Positions 1 to 5,264 of a stretch of 6,702 bases of DNA are shown here, piece after piece. Below the pieces are notes generated by a model, which saw nothing but the letters and a program-made list of their open reading frames with translations, made no database searches and was not told the origin of the DNA. Position 1 is the first letter of the stretch. Every line of letters starts with the position of its first letter. This DNA is from Nitrospinae bacterium RIFCSPLOWO2_12_FULL_45_22 (GTDB lineage Bacteria; 2-12-FULL-45-22), in NCBI GenBank assembly GCA_001803565.1, contig MHDQ01000216.1:1-6702 (forward strand), read 5' to 3'. A program made the translations under genes and the position numbers.

Positions 1-92
1 TGACCGAAGACCGTCCCCTTTATTCAGATATTGACAGGATATATCAATTGATCAGAAATAACTATCAATTGATTGAAAGCGCCCTATCCTAA
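1..92 (+). CDS. C-terminal end of a probable aromatic amino acid (histidine-type) ammonia-lyase (5' partial)
   Basis: Reading from base 3 gives an open frame of 29 residues, beginning T-E-D-R-P-L-Y-S-D-I, that ends at TAA (90-92). The E-D-R-P-L-x-x-D-I string followed by an amphipathic helix resembles the extreme C-terminus of the histidine/phenylalanine ammonia-lyase (HAL/PAL) family, enzymes that eliminate ammonia from an aromatic amino acid using an MIO cofactor. The catalytic part lies outside the window, so the substrate cannot be judged. The last residues contain a short duplication, YQLIRNN then YQLIESA, encoded by two 11-base copies of tatcaattgat 21 bases apart. This is the only convincing plus-strand gene here and it converges on the minus-strand array. 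The family call rests on a short tail and is moderate. Confidence 0.5.
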   Translation, partial: TEDRPLYSDIDRIYQLIRNNYQLIESALS

Positions 93-280: not shown

Positions 281-338
281 CGCTAACGACCTAAATCAGC
301 GGTGGCTATTAGCCATCCGCTGGATTTTCTTGTTAGCC
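281..338 (-). other. attC recombination site of the RelE-like toxin cassette
   Basis: On the minus strand the site runs from GGCTAAC (338-332) to GTTAGCG (287-281). Between them aaatc-c-agcgg-a-tggct pairs with agccaccgctgattt around an aat loop. The left arm has two extra bases (c and a), like the extrahelical bases that orient single-stranded attC recombination. The TAA stop of the toxin lies inside the first box. This site marks the low-coordinate end of the visible array. Confidence 0.82.
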
Positions 339-593
339 CATCTCTTTAATCATTCTTTCATATTCATCATGAGTGCCAATCCATACCCAAATGAAGTCAT
401 TACCATCTTCAACTGCGAGTGCTCTGTGATTCATTCCAGCTCGCACTGACCAAAACTTACCGACTTTTTTAAAATGAAGGGATGGATGTGAAGGATTAAT
501 TTTAAGTAGCTCGAAGTTCTTTTTCGATATCTTTTGGACAGGTTCTGGTAGGTTCTCAAAGCATTTCCAGAAACGGGCTGTTGTCCGATGCAT
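333..593 (-). CDS. RelE/ParE-superfamily (HigB-like) toxin of a type II TA module
   Basis: This 86-residue protein has the compact basic fold signature of RelE-superfamily mRNA interferases. A basic N-terminal helical half (RTTARFWKCFENLPEPVQ) is followed by the strand set F-K-K-V-G-K-F-W-S-V-R and A-L-A-V-E-D-G-N-D-F-I-W-V-W-I-G-T-H-D-E-Y. The final H-D-E-Y-E-R motif is typical of the subgroup. Family members cleave mRNA at the ribosome and are silenced by the partner antitoxin. The ATG directly abuts the antitoxin stop (TAAATG), so translation is coupled. The stop TAA is embedded in the first box of the downstream attC, a hallmark of a tightly packed cassette. No truncation is visible. The family is clear. 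Ribosome-dependent cleavage is inferred from the family. Confidence 0.85.
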   Translation of the reverse strand: MHRTTARFWKCFENLPEPVQKISKKNFELLKINPSHPSLHFKKVGKFWSVRAGMNHRALAVEDGNDFIWVWIGTHDEYERMIKEMG

Positions 594-794
594 TTAAAGT
601 TCCTTGAGCTTTCCCTTCGCTTTTTCATCAAGGGCTTCCCTGATCAGAAAATCCAGTTTTCCTGCCTCTGAATCGGCTTCAATCTGCCTATCCCATTTTT
701 CCCAATCCTTTTCAGAAAACCACTTTCTAAGGCGAATATATTCCTCTTCTGAGAGGGATTCAATTGCGGACTCGATTTCCTCTGCTTTTGACAT
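594..794 (-). CDS. antitoxin of the RelE-like module
   Basis: A 66-residue acidic, helix-rich protein (MSKAEEIESAIESLSEEEY...) without a classical ribbon-helix-helix or Xre motif. It resembles the small uncharacterised antitoxins found immediately upstream of this RelE subgroup. The L-S-x-E-E-Y-x-x-L-R-x-W-F segment probably forms a helical region, and the C-terminal D-F-L-I-x-E-A-L-x-E-K-A-K-G-K-L-K stretch probably wraps the toxin (inference from family behaviour). The start ATG at 794 is preceded by gaaagggggt about ten bases upstream, nearly identical to the ribosome binding site of the VapB-type gene at 2163. Only 18 bases separate it from the stop of the flavodoxin fragment. No strong own promoter was seen, so it may depend on read-through or on a promoter inside that fragment. 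Confidence 0.78.
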   Translation of the reverse strand: MSKAEEIESAIESLSEEEYIRLRKWFSEKDWEKWDRQIEADSEAGKLDFLIREALDEKAKGKLKEL

Positions 795-812
795 ATCTAA
801 TCTACCCCCTTT

Positions 813-1207
813 CTATAAAGCCTTTAAATTCAGTCCAATATCGTAAGCTTGTTTTAGATATTCTGGTTGTTTTAATACCGATCCTTTCTCCATTATATCA
901 CTAAAGGAAAACATATTTAATATTTTAACACCAAGACAACCCAGAAGGCGATTATAAAATTCCACTAATATTTTAGATTCATCATCCACTTTTTTTTGAT
1001 TCATAGGCGTTATAATAATAGCCTTCTTCCCTGCGGTCAATTCCCTGTTCTGTAAATGATAGTAAAAGAAAAGTCTGTCAAGAAATGTTTTCATCAATCC
1101 CGTAACCCCGCACCAGTAAAGAGGAGAAGCAAGTATCATTAATTCTACAGCGTTGATTTGATTACGGACTTCAGTCATAGCATCTTGAAAATTACATTCG
1201 GATTTTC
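813..1207 (-). pseudogene. flavodoxin-family NAD(P)H/FMN reductase, 5' end lost to an IS insertion
   Basis: The open frame encodes about 130 residues matching the C-terminal two thirds of NADPH-dependent FMN reductase / iron-sulfur flavoprotein-like proteins. It shows C-R-K-S-E-C-N-F-Q-D-A-M (the Cys-containing loop), then L-A-S-P-L-Y-W-C-G-V-T-G-L-M-K-T-F-L-D-R-L (flavin-binding strand and the conserved K-x-F-x-D-R helix), then G-K-K-A-I-I-I-T-P. Full-length members are roughly 180-210 residues and start with a G-S-P-R flavin-phosphate loop, which is absent. The lost 5' end coincides with the end of an IS-like sequence (from 1208). That sequence itself encodes the apparent leading residues L-V-K-N-E-G-C from a TTG codon, with a TAA just upstream. 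It is almost certainly non-functional. Confidence 0.8.
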
Positions 1208-1304
1208 GGCATCCTTCATTTTTGACCAAAAGTAGTTAACAGTTTTAAAGAGCAAAGTATTTTTTATGATATTTGGGTGAAAAAATCAATAGTTCAAAGA
1301 ACTT

Positions 1305-1482
1305 TTAAGAGGGTTGATCTACTAAGAGATCAACCCAATGTTGCTTCAATTTTTTACCAGTAAATATCTCAATGGGGGCCTTACCCTTTCTTTTGCCATC
1401 AACGAATCTTCTATGATTATGATAGAACATGATCAGGTTTAGGGCTTCCTGGGTTATATTGCCTTTGCAGGAGTTGAGGTAA
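1305..1482 (-). pseudogene. transposase, C-terminal fragment
   Basis: About 58 residues are transposase-like: Y-L-N-S-C-K-G-N-I-T-Q-E-A-L-N-L-I-M-F-Y-H-N-H-R-R-F, then G-K-R-K-G-K-A-P-I-E-I-F-T-G-K-K, then W-V-D-L-L. The Y-H-N-x-R and G-K-R-x-G-x-x-P-x-E strings are typical of the tail of DDE-type IS transposases, but I cannot name the IS family. The reading frame stays open upstream to an ATG at 1544. Those extra residues (MYIRLTTASSRPRTAADEAG) are translated attC sequence and not native protein. The catalytic DDE core is lost. The stop at 1305 overlaps a perfect hairpin (1311-1336). Confidence 0.65.
1311..1336. other. perfect 10-bp inverted repeat at the transposase 3' end
   Basis: gggttgatct (1311-1320) and agatcaaccc (1327-1336) are exact reverse complements around a 6-base loop. 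On the minus strand the hairpin spans the last codons of the transposase fragment and is not followed by a T-run. It is therefore more likely a folding or end structure of the IS, or a barrier to impinging transcription, than a classical intrinsic terminator. Confidence 0.5.
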
Positions 1483-1534
1483 CGCCCCGCTTCATCCGCC
1501 GCGGTACGCGGTCGGCTGGAAGCGGTTGTTAGGC
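1477..1534 (-). other. attC recombination site of the VapBC cassette
   Basis: On the minus strand it runs from GCCTAAC (1534-1528) to GTTACCT (1483-1477). The arms ccgcttc-c-agccg-a-ccgcg and cgcggcggatgaagcgg pair around a tac loop, leaving unpaired bases on the left arm. The toxin stop is 18 bases upstream. The trailing box departs from GTTRRRY and its continuation is transposase coding sequence. Confidence 0.82.
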
Positions 1535-1552
1535 GGATATACATTACTTAAT

Positions 1553-1939
1553 TTACCACAGCCGATCAACAGGATAGGCATCAAAGGAAGGATCTGCACT
1601 CAGAACAGGAAGCCGCTCAAACATGGACTGCCCGACCAGCAGCCGATCAAATGGATCACGATGGTGAAAAGGCAGCGTGGACACAACAGTAATATGGCCC
1701 ATCTTGATGTCCAGCAATCCAATGCCGTTAATGCTAAGCTGCTGCGGAATAAGCACATCGAAAGGTTGAGCCAAGCTGAGTTTGCCGAGGCTGAGCTTAA
1801 TGGCCATCTCCCAAAGGCTGGCTATGCTGAATAGCTTCTCGTTACTCCTATCTTCGATCAGCGCCCGCGCCTTCTCACTAAGTTTCGGGCTGCCCATGAT
1901 AAACCAAAGGAAGCTATATGTGTCCAGCAAAAGCTTCAT
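1553..1939 (-). CDS. vapC: VapC-type PIN-domain ribonuclease toxin
   Basis: A 128-residue protein of normal length for the VapC family, whose Mg-dependent PIN nucleases cut tRNA or rRNA. The acidic active-site positions are all visible: D6 in M-K-L-L-L-D-T, E44 in S-L-W-E-M-A-I-K, D95 in H-H-R-D-P-F-D-R-L-L (with D98), and D116 in S-A-D. The L-D-T-Y-S-F-L-W opening and the D-P-F-D-R motif place it in the subgroup paired with Phd/YefM antitoxins. Its ATG overlaps the antitoxin stop by four bases (ATGA), giving translational coupling. It appears intact and potentially active. It is followed 18 bases later by its attC site. The specific RNA target cannot be inferred. Confidence 0.92.
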   Translation of the reverse strand: MKLLLDTYSFLWFIMGSPKLSEKARALIEDRSNEKLFSIASLWEMAIKLSLGKLSLAQPFDVLIPQQLSINGIGLLDIKMGHITVVSTLPFHHRDPFDRLLVGQSMFERLPVLSADPSFDAYPVDRLW

Positions 1940-2163
1940 TTCATGTACTCGTTGAAATCCTCGAGCGGATCATCGAAGTCATCGGACATAGTGACTAACC
2001 CTCTCGCGCTCCCAAACTGGGGGCGCGGCTTGGTCTGCGAAAGCGGCGACAATTTAACGACGGGTCGATCGTCTTTCGTAATGACGACTTCTACCCCACT
2101 CATCGCCTCCTCAATCAAATCAGGCAGATGCATCTTTGCCTCATCGATATTTACTTGATGCAT
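1936..2163 (-). CDS. Phd/YefM-family antitoxin (VapB partner)
   Basis: This 75-residue protein begins M-H-Q-V-N-I-D-E-A-K-M-H-L-P-D-L-I-E-E-A, continues with G-V-E-V-V-I-T-K-D-D-R-P-V-V-K-L, and ends in the acidic tail M-S-D-D-F-D-D-P-L-E-D-F. These are the standard Phd/YefM parts: an N-terminal dimeric DNA-binding fold and a disordered C-terminus that occludes the PIN active site, including the recurrent F-D-D-P-L motif. The family normally represses its own operon. The start at 2163 is supported by gaaagggggtt about nine bases upstream, and an extended -10 like sequence lies at 2208-2213. The four-base overlap with the toxin confirms a two-gene unit. Confidence 0.92.
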   Translation of the reverse strand: MHQVNIDEAKMHLPDLIEEAMSGVEVVITKDDRPVVKLSPLSQTKPRPQFGSARGLVTMSDDFDDPLEDFNEYMK

Positions 2164-2207
2164 GATTTACAACCCCCTTTCTCCTACCTCAAGGATGCTA
2201 CTTCACA

Positions 2208-2216
2208 AGTATAACA
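2208..2216 (-). promoter_or_regulatory. extended -10 promoter candidate for the Phd/VapC cassette
   Basis: On the minus strand, TGT-TATACT provides a TGN-extended -10 about 45 bases before the antitoxin start. No good -35 was found at 17 bases. It lies just inside the cassette after the attC core, consistent with a cassette carrying its own promoter. Confidence 0.45.
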
Positions 2217-2250
2217 CACCAAAAGGAAAGGCACTTCAGCGAATAGTTAG

Positions 2251-2311
2251 GCTAAACCACCTCACGCATCAGCGGCGAGCGAAGCGATTCCGCTGGATGC
2301 GGTTGTTAGGC
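2251..2311 (-). other. attC recombination site of the ParE-like cassette
   Basis: The minus-strand site runs from GCCTAAC (2311-2305) to GTTTAGC (2257-2251). The main stem is gcatc-c-agcgg with ccgctgatgc, with one extra c on the left arm, around a longer variable terminal segment (aatcgcttcgctcg). The TGA stop of the toxin frame directly precedes the first box. A second GTTAGGC on the plus strand (2246-2252) overlaps the far end. Confidence 0.8.
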
Positions 2312-2614
2312 TCACTCATCATCTTGTTCAGGTCTGCCCAGCACATCCATGGCTCCATGGATGACAGCCAGAACGTCAATCTGGTCTGCCTTTATGTGGT
2401 AGATGATACGGAAGGAACCTTCGATCACTTCGCGAATCTGGTCAACATCATATTCGGGGACTCTACGGCCTGAGAAAGGGAATTCGGCAATTTGTTGAGA
2501 TCTTCGGGTAAGCCGATCCACCATGCGCCTGGCATATTCGGGCGAATCCTGAGCAATCTAAGCATAGATGGCGCCAAGATGCCCTTCCGCTGTATCGGTC
2601 CAGTGGACTTTCAT
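2312..2614 (-). pseudogene. ParE/RelE-family toxin interrupted by an amber codon
   Basis: The natural start is ATG at 2614, which overlaps the antitoxin stop as ATGA. The frame reads M-K-V-H-W-T-D-T-A-E-G-H-L-G-A-I-Y-A, then TAG (2558-2560), then I-A-Q-D-S-P-E-Y-A-R-R-M-V-D-R-L and on to the end, 100 codons in all. The family normally has an aromatic or other residue in the A-I-Y-x-Y/F-I position, so a single base change of a TAT, TAC or similar codon to TAG is the simplest explanation. The rest is a good ParE-like toxin: F-P-x-S-G-R-x-V-P-E, I-R-E-V-I-E-G-S-F-R-I-I-Y, I-D-V-L-A-V-I-H-G-A. The first 18 residues form the N-terminal strand and helix start, so re-initiation at ATG 2524 (71 codons) would probably not give an active toxin. 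Its antitoxin is intact. Confidence 0.85.
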
Positions 2615-2799
2615 TCCGGTAAACCGTACTTCGCCCGAACCTCTTTCACGTCTTTGGTCCGACCTGCTTTGCTGTCGGCCAATCCGCGCTCAACCGCCTC
2701 CCGGACGTAAATCTCCCGCATGAGATCATCCCATGTGGCGTTTGGTGGCATCCGATCGATGATCCTGTGGGCTTCTTCCTTTTCCATGATTATTGACAT
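2611..2799 (-). CDS. antitoxin of the ParE-like module
   Basis: I chose the ATG at 2799 (62 residues, M-S-I-I-M-E-K-E-E-A-H) because gaaggaga lies seven bases upstream. An upstream alternative start has no such site. The central segment A-T-W-D-D-L-M-R-E-I-Y-V-R-E-A-V-E-R-G-L-A-D-S and the tail V-K-E-V-R-A-K-Y-G-L-P-E match the short helical antitoxins found with ParE/RelE toxins. It is not a recognisable ribbon-helix-helix protein, and its DNA-binding mode is not evident. The stop overlaps the toxin start. Because the toxin is broken, this may now be an orphan antitoxin. Confidence 0.78.
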   Translation of the reverse strand: MSIIMEKEEAHRIIDRMPPNATWDDLMREIYVREAVERGLADSKAGRTKDVKEVRAKYGLPE

Positions 2800-2825
2800 A
2801 GCATTCTCTCCTTCTTTCTTGTCAT

Positions 2826-2854
2826 AGAATAGCACCAAACTGAGCTGACTTCAA
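2826..2854 (-). promoter_or_regulatory. sigma70-like promoter of the ParE-like cassette
   Basis: On the minus strand, TTGAAG (2854-2849) and TATTCT (2831-2826) are separated by exactly 17 bases. The -10 ends 26 bases before the chosen antitoxin ATG, leaving room for the ribosome binding site. Confidence 0.6.
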
Positions 2855-3105
2855 TTTATCCCAAGCCAGTGGGTAAGAGGGAGGCCGTAGCCACCCCTCC
2901 CCGGAGTATCATTGCCTGGCTCCTTCAACACAGTCCCTCTTCCCCTATATTTGCTGAGCGTTGGGCTACCCTAGCTGCATAGCACTCTGAACGAGAGTTC
3001 GAGCAATGACTTCTGTACAGAGACGAATCCGCACAGGTAGGCTTCGGAGTTATTTCATCACCTCCTCACCGTTTAAAAAACTAAGCGAGAATACCCTGCG
3101 TCTCA
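2855..3105. other. unexplained non-coding leader of the ParE-like cassette
   Basis: About 250 bases between the upstream attC and the promoter hold no supported frame on either strand. It is more G+C-rich than the flanks and contains several short inverted repeats: gggagg with cctccc (2879-2901), ggag with ctcc (about 2904-2924), and actct with agagt around gaacg (about 2986-3000). I could not match it to a known RNA family or to a recognisable IS fragment. Confidence 0.4.
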
Positions 3106-3164
3106 CGGGAACGATTGAGTTCAGCCGCCGCTGTAAAGCGGTCGGCTGGAATGAATTGTTAGGC
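3106..3164 (-). other. attC recombination site of the MazF-like cassette
   Basis: The minus-strand site runs from GCCTAAC (3164-3158) to GTTCCCG (3112-3106). The arm cagccg-a-ccgct pairs with agcggcggctg around a ttac loop, with one unpaired base. An outer paired region, aattcattc with gaactcaatc, flanks it. The opening GCCTAACAATTCATTC closely resembles attC sites of mobile-integron aadA-type cassettes (recalled, not searched). The trailing box does not fit GTTRRRY. Confidence 0.85.
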
Positions 3165-3210: not shown

Positions 3211-3546
3211 TTACGTCTTTGGAGAGAATGTATATAATGTCTGCCATAGATTTGTCAGCATGCTTCTATCATAATCTGTAAGTCGTCCTAAACGACGGGA
3301 AATATCATGCTTCTCCAAGCAGGCAATTTTCGCCAGCCGTACCCACGACTCTTTCAATAGGCCACTCATCGACCAGTCTCTCAACCTGCAGTCACCTTGT
3401 CCAGATCGTTCTATTGTGGTTATGGGAGCCAGAACGACATCTGCATCACCGATGTCTAAAACTACGAGAGCAGGGCGTCTCTTCCTCTGGCTAGTGCCGG
3501 ATTGTGGGAAATCTACCAAAACAATGTCTCCAAACTCATAGTTCAT
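3211..3546 (-). CDS. MazF/PemK-family endoribonuclease toxin
   Basis: The 111-residue product from the ATG at 3546 starts M-N-Y-E-F-G-D-I-V-L-V-D-F-P. It carries K-R-R-P-A-L-V-V-L and V-V-L-A-P-I-T-T, then S-W-V-R-L-A-K-I-A-C-L-E, and ends in L-T-D-Y-D-R-x-M-L. This is the CcdB/PemK barrel, whose R-R-P arginine and following threonine region form the ssRNA-cleaving site in MazF proteins. The frame is open further upstream and an ATG at 3549 is better spaced from AGGA, so the start is uncertain by one codon. It overlaps the antitoxin gene by 11 bases. Length and motifs look intact. The attC begins 46 bases after its stop. Confidence 0.88.
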   Translation of the reverse strand: MNYEFGDIVLVDFPQSGTSQRKRRPALVVLDIGDADVVLAPITTIERSGQGDCRLRDWSMSGLLKESWVRLAKIACLEKHDISRRLGRLTDYDRSMLTNLWQTLYTFSPKT

Positions 3547-3730
3547 CATAGATAGCATCCTGATCATCGTATGCTTCTAAGAAGTGCTTCTTTGCCGCTT
3601 CCCGCCAAATGTGATCTTCTTCTCTCTTATCTGAGATGGAGATCTGAATATATGCTCCCGGTTGAACAGAAATCGGTTGACTCAACTCTAAATGCGTTGG
3701 GTCCAAAATCTTTGCATTGATAATCTTCAT
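3536..3730 (-). CDS. antitoxin of the MazF/PemK module
   Basis: A 64-residue protein: M-K-I-I-N-A-K-I-L-D-P-T-H-L-E-L-S-Q-P-I, a short beta segment ending I-Q-I-S-I-S-D, then an acidic helical tail W-R-E-A-A-K-K-H-F-L-E-A-Y-D-D-Q-D-A-I-Y-D-E-L. The first half resembles the strand-turn-strand of AbrB/MazE-like dimers. The tail resembles the small uncharacterised proteins that precede this MazF subgroup in many bacteria. The start at 3730 is fixed by a strong aaaggaggag ribosome binding site. The antitoxin role is inferred from position and overlap. Confidence 0.78.
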   Translation of the reverse strand: MKIINAKILDPTHLELSQPISVQPGAYIQISISDKREEDHIWREAAKKHFLEAYDDQDAIYDEL

Positions 3731-3810: not shown

Positions 3811-4051
3811 GAAATATGTATATGTAAAGGAATGTTTCAATACTCAAACTGTACGAATTGCCGTTGGCCACATGAACATCCAACTGTAATATACTGATCT
3901 TTAGAACTACCATGTGCAGATTTCTCACTAGCGTATACCCGTTTAAGTGGTTTTTCGGCTTGTGTCTGTTATTATTGGAAAAATAACGGAGAGAGCCAGG
4001 TTAATCAGAGTTAATCAGGGATATTCCCCATAGGTAGCTCCCCATGTGTAC
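3811..4051. other. gene-free junction between the array and the host operon
   Basis: No supported gene. It contains a GTTATT/AATAAC inverted repeat (about 3969-3988) and a tandem pair of gttaatcag words (about 4000-4020). It also has ccccat repeated at about 4026 and 4042, resembling sequence at 104-121 beyond the opposite array end. One minus-strand GTTGGAT (3884-3878) fits the GTTRRRY core, but nothing else there looks like attI. Confidence 0.4.
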
Positions 4052-5023
4052 TTACCAGCGCCAGAGGGCTACACAGAAAACGATACTTAAAGCCAATAAT
4101 AGATTAGAGTAGGCCAGGACTAAGAAAAGTTTCTGATAAGGAAAATTACCCGGCCCGGGAGCCGCTCCCGTTATGCTAGTAAGTACACCTATTATGGGGA
4201 ATTTCTCTAAGGGTTTTTCTCCATGAGGCGATTGAACTAGTGCCTCACCCAGTTCTTTACCGGCTTCATGCCGCTGCATATGGGCTCCAGTTTTCCAGAG
4301 ACGGCTCTGGGACAGGTCATAAACCCTGCCCCACACCGCCACATATATTCCCTTGCCCTCCTTACCAGCAAAAGTTTCCAACTCTTCCAGGGTAAAGATT
4401 TTCTGGACTGGCTGCAGCGGTTGGCCTCCTTTATACCTTTTGAGCCTCGGATTGATAACGAAGGTTACCAGGCTAGCTGAGCATAGCATAAGAAGAAAAA
4501 GGCTACTCTTAACTAACAATATCTCCCCAAAGGTAGTAGAAGTTAATTCCGCTAAAGAATTTAATTTGGCTATGGATAGATAGATACCTGTGCTAACCAG
4601 GATAATAATACAGGCCCAACTGTAGACTATCTCTTTGGTAGGTATACCACCCTCTACCGTACGGGGTGAGAGTATCAGGTGGATAAAAAGGATTGCTCCT
4701 AGCCAGGCTACAGCGGCGGCCAGGTGGAGCCACCCCACTGTCAGTTGGAGGCAACGTTGCCATATATAAGCCCGGGCAGTAGGGATAGGCCAGCGGTGTC
4801 CACGAGTGCGAAATGCCTCACCGGTGCTATTTAATATGCCACCACCGCCTGGGTCTATATGACAGCCCTCACAGGGTTGGTTGGTCTGAATGGCATATTC
4901 AGGATGGCTGGCTGTTTCGACTGGTAGGAATAAAAAAATAGAGGACAGGGTTATTCCAAATATAACCCAGGAACTTCTACGAAAGATTAAACCAACTCCC
5001 TCAATCAATTGTCCTGTACGCAT
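4052..5023 (-). CDS. membrane haem protein: CxxCH motif + CopD-like transmembrane domain + cytochrome b5-like domain
   Basis: The 323-residue protein has a hydrophobic N-terminal segment (about 16-36) that looks like a signal anchor, then C-E-G-C-H at 51-55, a c-type haem motif in a G-G-G-G loop. A CopD/DUF-like helical bundle follows, with G-W-L-H-L-A-A-A-V-A-W-L-G at 97-109 and helices at about 97-119, 131-152 and 166-190. Next comes a soluble cytochrome b5-like haem/steroid-binding domain at about 208-282 (F-T-L-E-E-L, V-Y-D-L-S-Q-S, W-K-T-G-A-H-M-Q-R-H-E-A-G, S-P-H-G). A C-terminal helix lies at about 298-320. Two different haem types on one membrane protein suggest an electron-transfer role at the cytoplasmic membrane, which is an inference. 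The ribosome binding site is weak and two out-of-frame ATGs precede the start, which lies 37 bases from the MITE end. Confidence 0.8.
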   Translation of the reverse strand: MRTGQLIEGVGLIFRRSSWVIFGITLSSIFLFLPVETASHPEYAIQTNQPCEGCHIDPGGGGILNSTGEAFRTRGHRWPIPTARAYIWQRCLQLTVGWLHLAAAVAWLGAILFIHLILSPRTVEGGIPTKEIVYSWACIIILVSTGIYLSIAKLNSLAELTSTTFGEILLVKSSLFLLMLCSASLVTFVINPRLKRYKGGQPLQPVQKIFTLEELETFAGKEGKGIYVAVWGRVYDLSQSRLWKTGAHMQRHEAGKELGEALVQSPHGEKPLEKFPIIGVLTSITGAAPGPGNFPYQKLFLVLAYSNLLLALSIVFCVALWRW

Positions 5024-5060: not shown

Positions 5061-5264
5061 GGCATCCTTCATTTTTCCAATTAACATTTTAACCCATAAG
5101 AGTGTAAGCAAGAGGGGATAAGGAGATAGGAGAGATAATGGAGATAAAGAAAATAGCCTGATATTTCCCTATTCTCATAATCTCCAAATCCCCTTTTCTT
5201 ACACAGGTTAACTACTATGTTCTTCCAAACCGTTAACTACTTTTGGTGAAATATGAAGGATGCC
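5061..5264. mobile_element. 204-bp foldback MITE with terminal inverted repeats
   Basis: The left end ggcatccttcatttttcc and the reverse complement of the right end, ggcatccttcatatttcacc, share their outer 12 bases exactly. Inner arms, gtgtaag with aggggataaggagatag (about 5102-5128), pair imperfectly with the run ending cccctt-ttcttacac (about 5170-5204), so the whole unit can fold back. Possible 3-bp target duplications (att) flank it. It has no coding capacity. Its right end matches the IS remnant at 1208-1240 in 31 of 33 bases. The left half is a polypurine tract with repeated ggagata words. It lies 5 bases from one gene's stop and 37 bases before the next start. Confidence 0.75.

Follow-up and report, generated by a model that had tools for sequence, protein, structure and literature searches.

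In the IntegronFinder definition a CALIN consists of at least two attC sites with no neighbouring integrase (PMC9024848). CALINs and complete integrons occur in similar numbers, and both are already on record from many phyla, archaeal metagenome bins among them (PMC9024848; PMC9668308). Exogenous integrases are able to use cassettes that reside in CALINs (PMC9668308). Toxin-antitoxin (TA) cassettes are common in integrons, to which they are believed to lend stability (PMC7370490; PMC11023631); their abundance has been published (PMC7370490), and in the Vibrio cholerae superintegron TA genes occupy 19 of 179 cassettes (PMC11023631). The locus described here is like the IntegronFinder CALINs (PMC9024848) in having at least two same-facing attC sites, no intI nearby and a lower number of sites than complete integrons typically have, but it is unlike them in that all four cassettes are TA pairs, that intact intI genes are present elsewhere in the genome, and that the host phylum is represented by two genomes only in the collection we used. 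With the TA cassettes of sedentary chromosomal integrons it shares the arrangement of a type II TA operon followed by attC, which is thought to stabilise arrays, whereas the array itself is short and integrase-less and has short attC sites (58-61 nt). The array adds to a published kind, and its host and TA-only content are mildly interesting.

The stretch of DNA analysed, referred to below as the window, is the 6,702-nucleotide contig C216 (MHDQ01000216.1) of Nitrospinae bacterium RIFCSPLOWO2_12_FULL_45_22, a bin that is 85% complete and distributed over 321 contigs. Among the named integron-bearing genomes compared, the rpoB gene of the host is nearest to Nitrospirae/Nitrospinia (61-64% identity). 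We are confident in reading the locus as a CALIN of four type II TA cassettes on the minus strand, located between host genes and most likely constituting a remnant or satellite of the integron system of the host.

For detection of attC sites two covariance models were used. Ten attC sites from plasmid records, the majority of them in resistance integrons, were used to build model R1, which contains no sequence from the window. The model was run on the window with filters off, the E values applying within the window, and also over the remaining attC contigs of the host and over integron integrase loci from many other bacteria. Around the intI genes of these bacteria nearly all matches had the strand orientation that an array should have, which served as a positive control. 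Model R2 was trained on 87 R1 matches, none from the window, and is not fully independent of R1 because R1 picked its training set. The features of the locus are as follows.

1-92, plus strand: left host flank, comprising the final codons of a hutH-like gene with its stop (exact 92-base overlap with one end of contig C151)
281-338, minus strand: attC1, 58 nt (R1 and R2 match, fold)
333-593, minus strand: ParE-like toxin, 86 aa (PF24732, E 2.9e-4, just under the gathering score)
594-794, minus strand: putative partner antitoxin, 66 aa, abutting the toxin (position only)
813-1475, minus strand: debris separating attC2 from the following cassette (FMN-reductase fragment, short repeat, orphan ORF tail)
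1477-1534, minus strand: attC2, 58 nt (R1 and R2 match, fold)
1553-1939, minus strand: VapC-like PIN toxin, 128 aa (PF01850, E 1.2e-7)
1936-2163, minus strand: Phd/VapB antitoxin, 75 aa (PF02604, PF10047; TIGR01552 over the cut-off; NF050009, E 8.6e-14, below the cut-off)
2251-2311, minus strand: attC3, 61 nt, weak or decayed (R1 E 0.05, R2 E 0.004, fold z -1.39)
2312-2614, minus strand: ParE toxin gene, interrupted (translation; PF05016 match to the open part, E 3.4e-9)
2611-2838, minus strand: RelB/ParD-like antitoxin, 75 aa (weak NF050811 match, E 0.006, below the cut-off; 4-base overlap with ParE)
3106-3164, minus strand: attC4, 59 nt, GCCTAAC ... CGTTCCC, after the MazF gene (R1 and R2 match, fold)
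3211-3567, minus strand: MazF/PemK-like toxin, 118 aa (PF02452, 54.6 bits, E 1.4e-14)
3536-3730, minus strand: putative partner antitoxin, 64 aa, overlapping the MazF start (position and overlap only)
4052-5023, minus strand: right host flank, CopD/cytochrome-b5-like gene (PF05425, E 2.4e-10)

Both models matched four attC-like sites, all on the minus strand and each located at or just after the stop codon of a minus-strand gene. For sites 1 to 4, R1 gave 36.2, 20.8, 13.9 and 48.9 bits (E 5.5e-8, 7e-4, 0.05 and 2e-11 within the window) and R2 gave 52.8, 34.0, 19.0 and 54.3 bits (E 5.5e-11, 1.3e-6, 4e-3 and 2e-11 within the window). Apart from these sites, their own reverse-strand echoes and a partial match directly adjoining attC3 (14.6-17.1 bits; 17.1 bits with R1), no part of the window scored above 9.5 bits with R1 or 9.0 bits with R2. 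The sites at 281, 1477 and 3106 kept their significance at the genome-wide scale (E 3e-8, 7e-4 and 1.3e-8, respectively), while attC3 was significant only within the window. In the predicted bottom-strand folds the boxes were paired and an extrahelical base was present in sites 1, 2 and 4, as in known attC sites, with z values of -5.70, -2.85 and -5.55, and the fold of site 3 (z -1.39) was no better than those of many shuffled sequences. It is clear that three of the attC sites are secure and that site 3 is marginal. An initial annotation of this DNA had proposed four same-facing attC sites, each directly after a gene, and had named a covariance-model search and bottom-strand folding as checks; the search matched all four sites on one strand and upheld their orientation and order, and the folding bore out sites 1, 2 and 4, but site 3 proved weak by model and fold alike. 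Comparison of the window sites as a possible host-specific sequence family gave means of 0.60-0.62 within the own genome against 0.57-0.60 in other bacteria and hence no useful signature.

Since a hairpin may be found at the end of any compact operon, and since site 3 alone is unconvincing, the four structures could be thought of as terminators or repeat elements that by chance follow TA genes. We regard the probability of this as practically negligible. Three of the sites match a model of resistance-cassette attC at E values of 7e-4 or better, and they display conserved R and L boxes with an extrahelical base, not the plain stem and T-run of a terminator. Furthermore, promoters and terminators predicted in the array were at chance level, the predicted terminators differed from these four sites, and matching integrases are present in the genome. 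A scan of the window against Rfam gave no relevant family.

Turning to the borders of the attC array, the full hutH-like ORF that is joined to the left flank lies at the right-hand end of contig C151, and its sequence is that of a histidine ammonia-lyase, a name given from the reading of the sequence alone. Beyond the CopD side lie genes for a 2-hydroxyacyl-CoA dehydratase subunit and an enoyl-CoA hydratase. A profile search with TIGR02249 (cut-off 265 bits) found no integron integrase in the window, in agreement with the initial annotation, and the right, plus-strand side, where intI is expected, is occupied by host genes without an integrase match. The contig therefore lacks the intI beside the array that, together with attI, defines a complete integron; it holds at least two attC sites within approximately 4 kb of each other, in one orientation, each 3' of a cassette gene and integrase-less, with host genes on both sides, which is a CALIN in the IntegronFinder sense, as had also been suggested. 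It could be argued that the array belongs to a complete integron and looks integrase-less as the result of a broken assembly, given that the genome is in 321 contigs, that many of its attC arrays reach contig ends, and that draft genomes inflate CALIN counts (PMC9024848). This is very improbable here, as the array is closed within the contig by the hutH-like end (1-92, joined to C151) and the CopD-like gene at 4052, and as the expected intI side consists of host genes. Since host genes are found on both sides and no integrase between them, we conclude that the array is a genuine CALIN and not the product of a split contig.

An imperfect 14-base direct repeat, CTCCCCATnTGTAC, immediately flanks the array on either side (107-120 and 4038-4051). 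Equally good repeats were obtained in 18 of 500 shuffles, and the repeat is only a hint of an insertion scar.

All four cassettes carry TA pairs, a feature missed by the initial annotation together with the decay of one toxin gene and one attC site. Read along the minus strand, the array starts with the putative antitoxin gene and the MazF gene (3730-3211) and attC4, followed by the RelB/ParD-like and ParE genes (2838-2312) and attC3, the Phd/VapB and VapC genes (2163-1553) and attC2, the debris (1475-813), and finally a small gene with the ParE-like toxin gene (794-333) and attC1. The 64-aa putative partner of MazF and the 66-aa putative partner of the ParE-like toxin gave no match in Pfam or NCBIfam, and the Phd/VapB protein is the only one of the four antitoxins with a family match above the cut-off. 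Its neighbour, the VapC-like toxin, is approximately 50% identical to annotated plasmid VapC toxins adjoining prevent-host-death family antitoxins. In the ParE gene the reading frame is broken by a stop codon at about 2558-2560, which leaves 2312-2524 as the open part, and attC3 beside this gene has probably decayed; from the stop and the neighbouring weak attC site taken together we conclude that the ParE cassette is decaying. In the debris the FMN-reductase fragment (813-1229) matches PF03358 from profile position 53 only, and the orphan ORF tail runs from about 1475 down to 1305. The last toxin gene has its stop codon within the first box of attC1, a site that is 90% identical over 42 nt to an attC site on contig C261 of the same genome. 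PADLOC found no defence system.

The attC site next to mazF had been noted as strikingly similar to those of mobile-integron cassettes, and this was confirmed: attC4 is 84% identical over 55 nt to the attC site of an aac(6') cassette array, with the boxes and bulge in common with resistance cassettes of the aac(6')/aadA type. Unlike in mobile integrons, the cassette genes here are not resistance genes and no mobile integron platform is present.

The term integrase-less applies to this array locally only, as intact integrases are encoded elsewhere in the genome. The search of the remaining contigs for IntI, which had been proposed along with the annotation, revealed two intact integron integrases, on C243 (467 bits) and C304 (439 bits), as well as partial or broken intI copies on several other contigs. 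Both intact proteins keep the invariant R, H-x-x-R, H and Y residues, as well as the IntI-specific insert that IntI1 also has. Beside the C304 gene lie six attC sites, all on the canonical strand, and beside the C243 gene there is one. Across the genome R2 detected 70 attC sites; the set tabulated by us also comprises 70 sites, on 33 contigs, and consists of the R2 matches plus attC3 minus one match on C320. With two intact intI genes, a six-site array beside one of them and approximately 70 attC sites in the genome, and with integrons and CALINs known in many phyla (PMC9024848; PMC9668308), the suggestion that this would be an unusual location for a CALIN finds no support.

Lone attC sites occur on approximately 16 contigs. 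Together with the intact integrases, and with the listing of attG sites among integrase substrates (PMC12901181), this scatter raises the alternative that the cassettes were inserted singly at non-classical, attG-type genomic sites by an integrase that was never local. We consider this origin, which competes with the decay of a local integron, rather unlikely, bearing in mind that many of the singletons lie near contig ends. Most likely the array is a relic, or else a satellite, of the integron system that belongs to the host, as judged from the integrases and attC sites described above.

How such an array could persist may be pictured as follows. Sites 1 and 4, and probably site 2, are candidates for still folding as bottom-strand hairpins, and it is plausible that the integrase of C243 or that of C304 could recombine them in trans. 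As loss of a TA pair would harm the cell, the pairs would be retained, and the retained pairs may hold the array in place after local integrase function was lost, or where it was never present. Selective retention of TA cassettes would be consistent with published work (PMC11023631; PMC7370490). Elsewhere in the genome approximately 11 TA-like proteins were recognised by Pfam among the small proteins preceding approximately 66 attC sites, and the occurrence of TA pairs in four out of four cassettes would have a chance probability of approximately 0.0015-0.008, a comparison chosen after seeing the data and concerning one array. Relatives of the VapC and MazF genes were looked for in 30 other integron-bearing genomes and none of them adjoins an attC site, showing that these families are not obligate cassettes. 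The small, cleanly bounded all-TA array offers a test case for whether TA cassettes outlast others when an integron decays, and it extends the range of integron hosts by a bacterial lineage that has rarely been sampled.

Both genomes of the host phylum in the collection carry an intact intI gene. From the two intact and several remnant intI genes in a single genome we tentatively suggest that integrases may have been gained, duplicated and lost repeatedly in this phylum and that TA cassettes selectively survive in arrays that have become integrase-less, in which case CALINs could be self-maintaining fossils that can be recombined in trans. If true, scattered chromosomal attC arrays would be the leavings of repeated integrase turnover.

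Some of the intI genes have an unusual structure. The intact IntI at C304:4451-5812 has an N-terminal extension of approximately 140 residues; in Pfam a second stretch of the protein matches the SAM-like core-binding domain PF13495, and two more intI N-terminal fragments follow downstream on C304. An integrase remnant is present in two copies, C136:20148-20653 and C317:8631-9136, with 83% DNA identity over 596 bases; it joins roughly residues 3-127 to residues 271-316 in two frames, and a shorter relative is found at C287:14369-14509. This remnant is a decayed intI that was itself duplicated.

Two types of repeats were observed in the window. A repeat of approximately 160-200 bases follows attC4 (2900-3085, minus strand) and has three further copies in the genome (C99:5921-6080, C260:5230-5320 and C131:10024-10224), of which the C131 copy also adjoins an attC site and the C260 copy is located at a contig end and runs into a gene. 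A group II intron was considered as its source and rejected, as there was no Rfam match and as the repeat lies on the wrong side of attC; attC-targeting introns are known from the other side of the site. The second repeat is short and interspersed, has an inverted end (GGCATCCTTCAT...ATGAAGGATGCC) and is present at more than 12 genomic locations, including 1203-1266 and 5061-5264 of the window. At about 1208 it appears to truncate the FMN-reductase gene, and the copy at 5061-5264 has both ends and is MITE-like.
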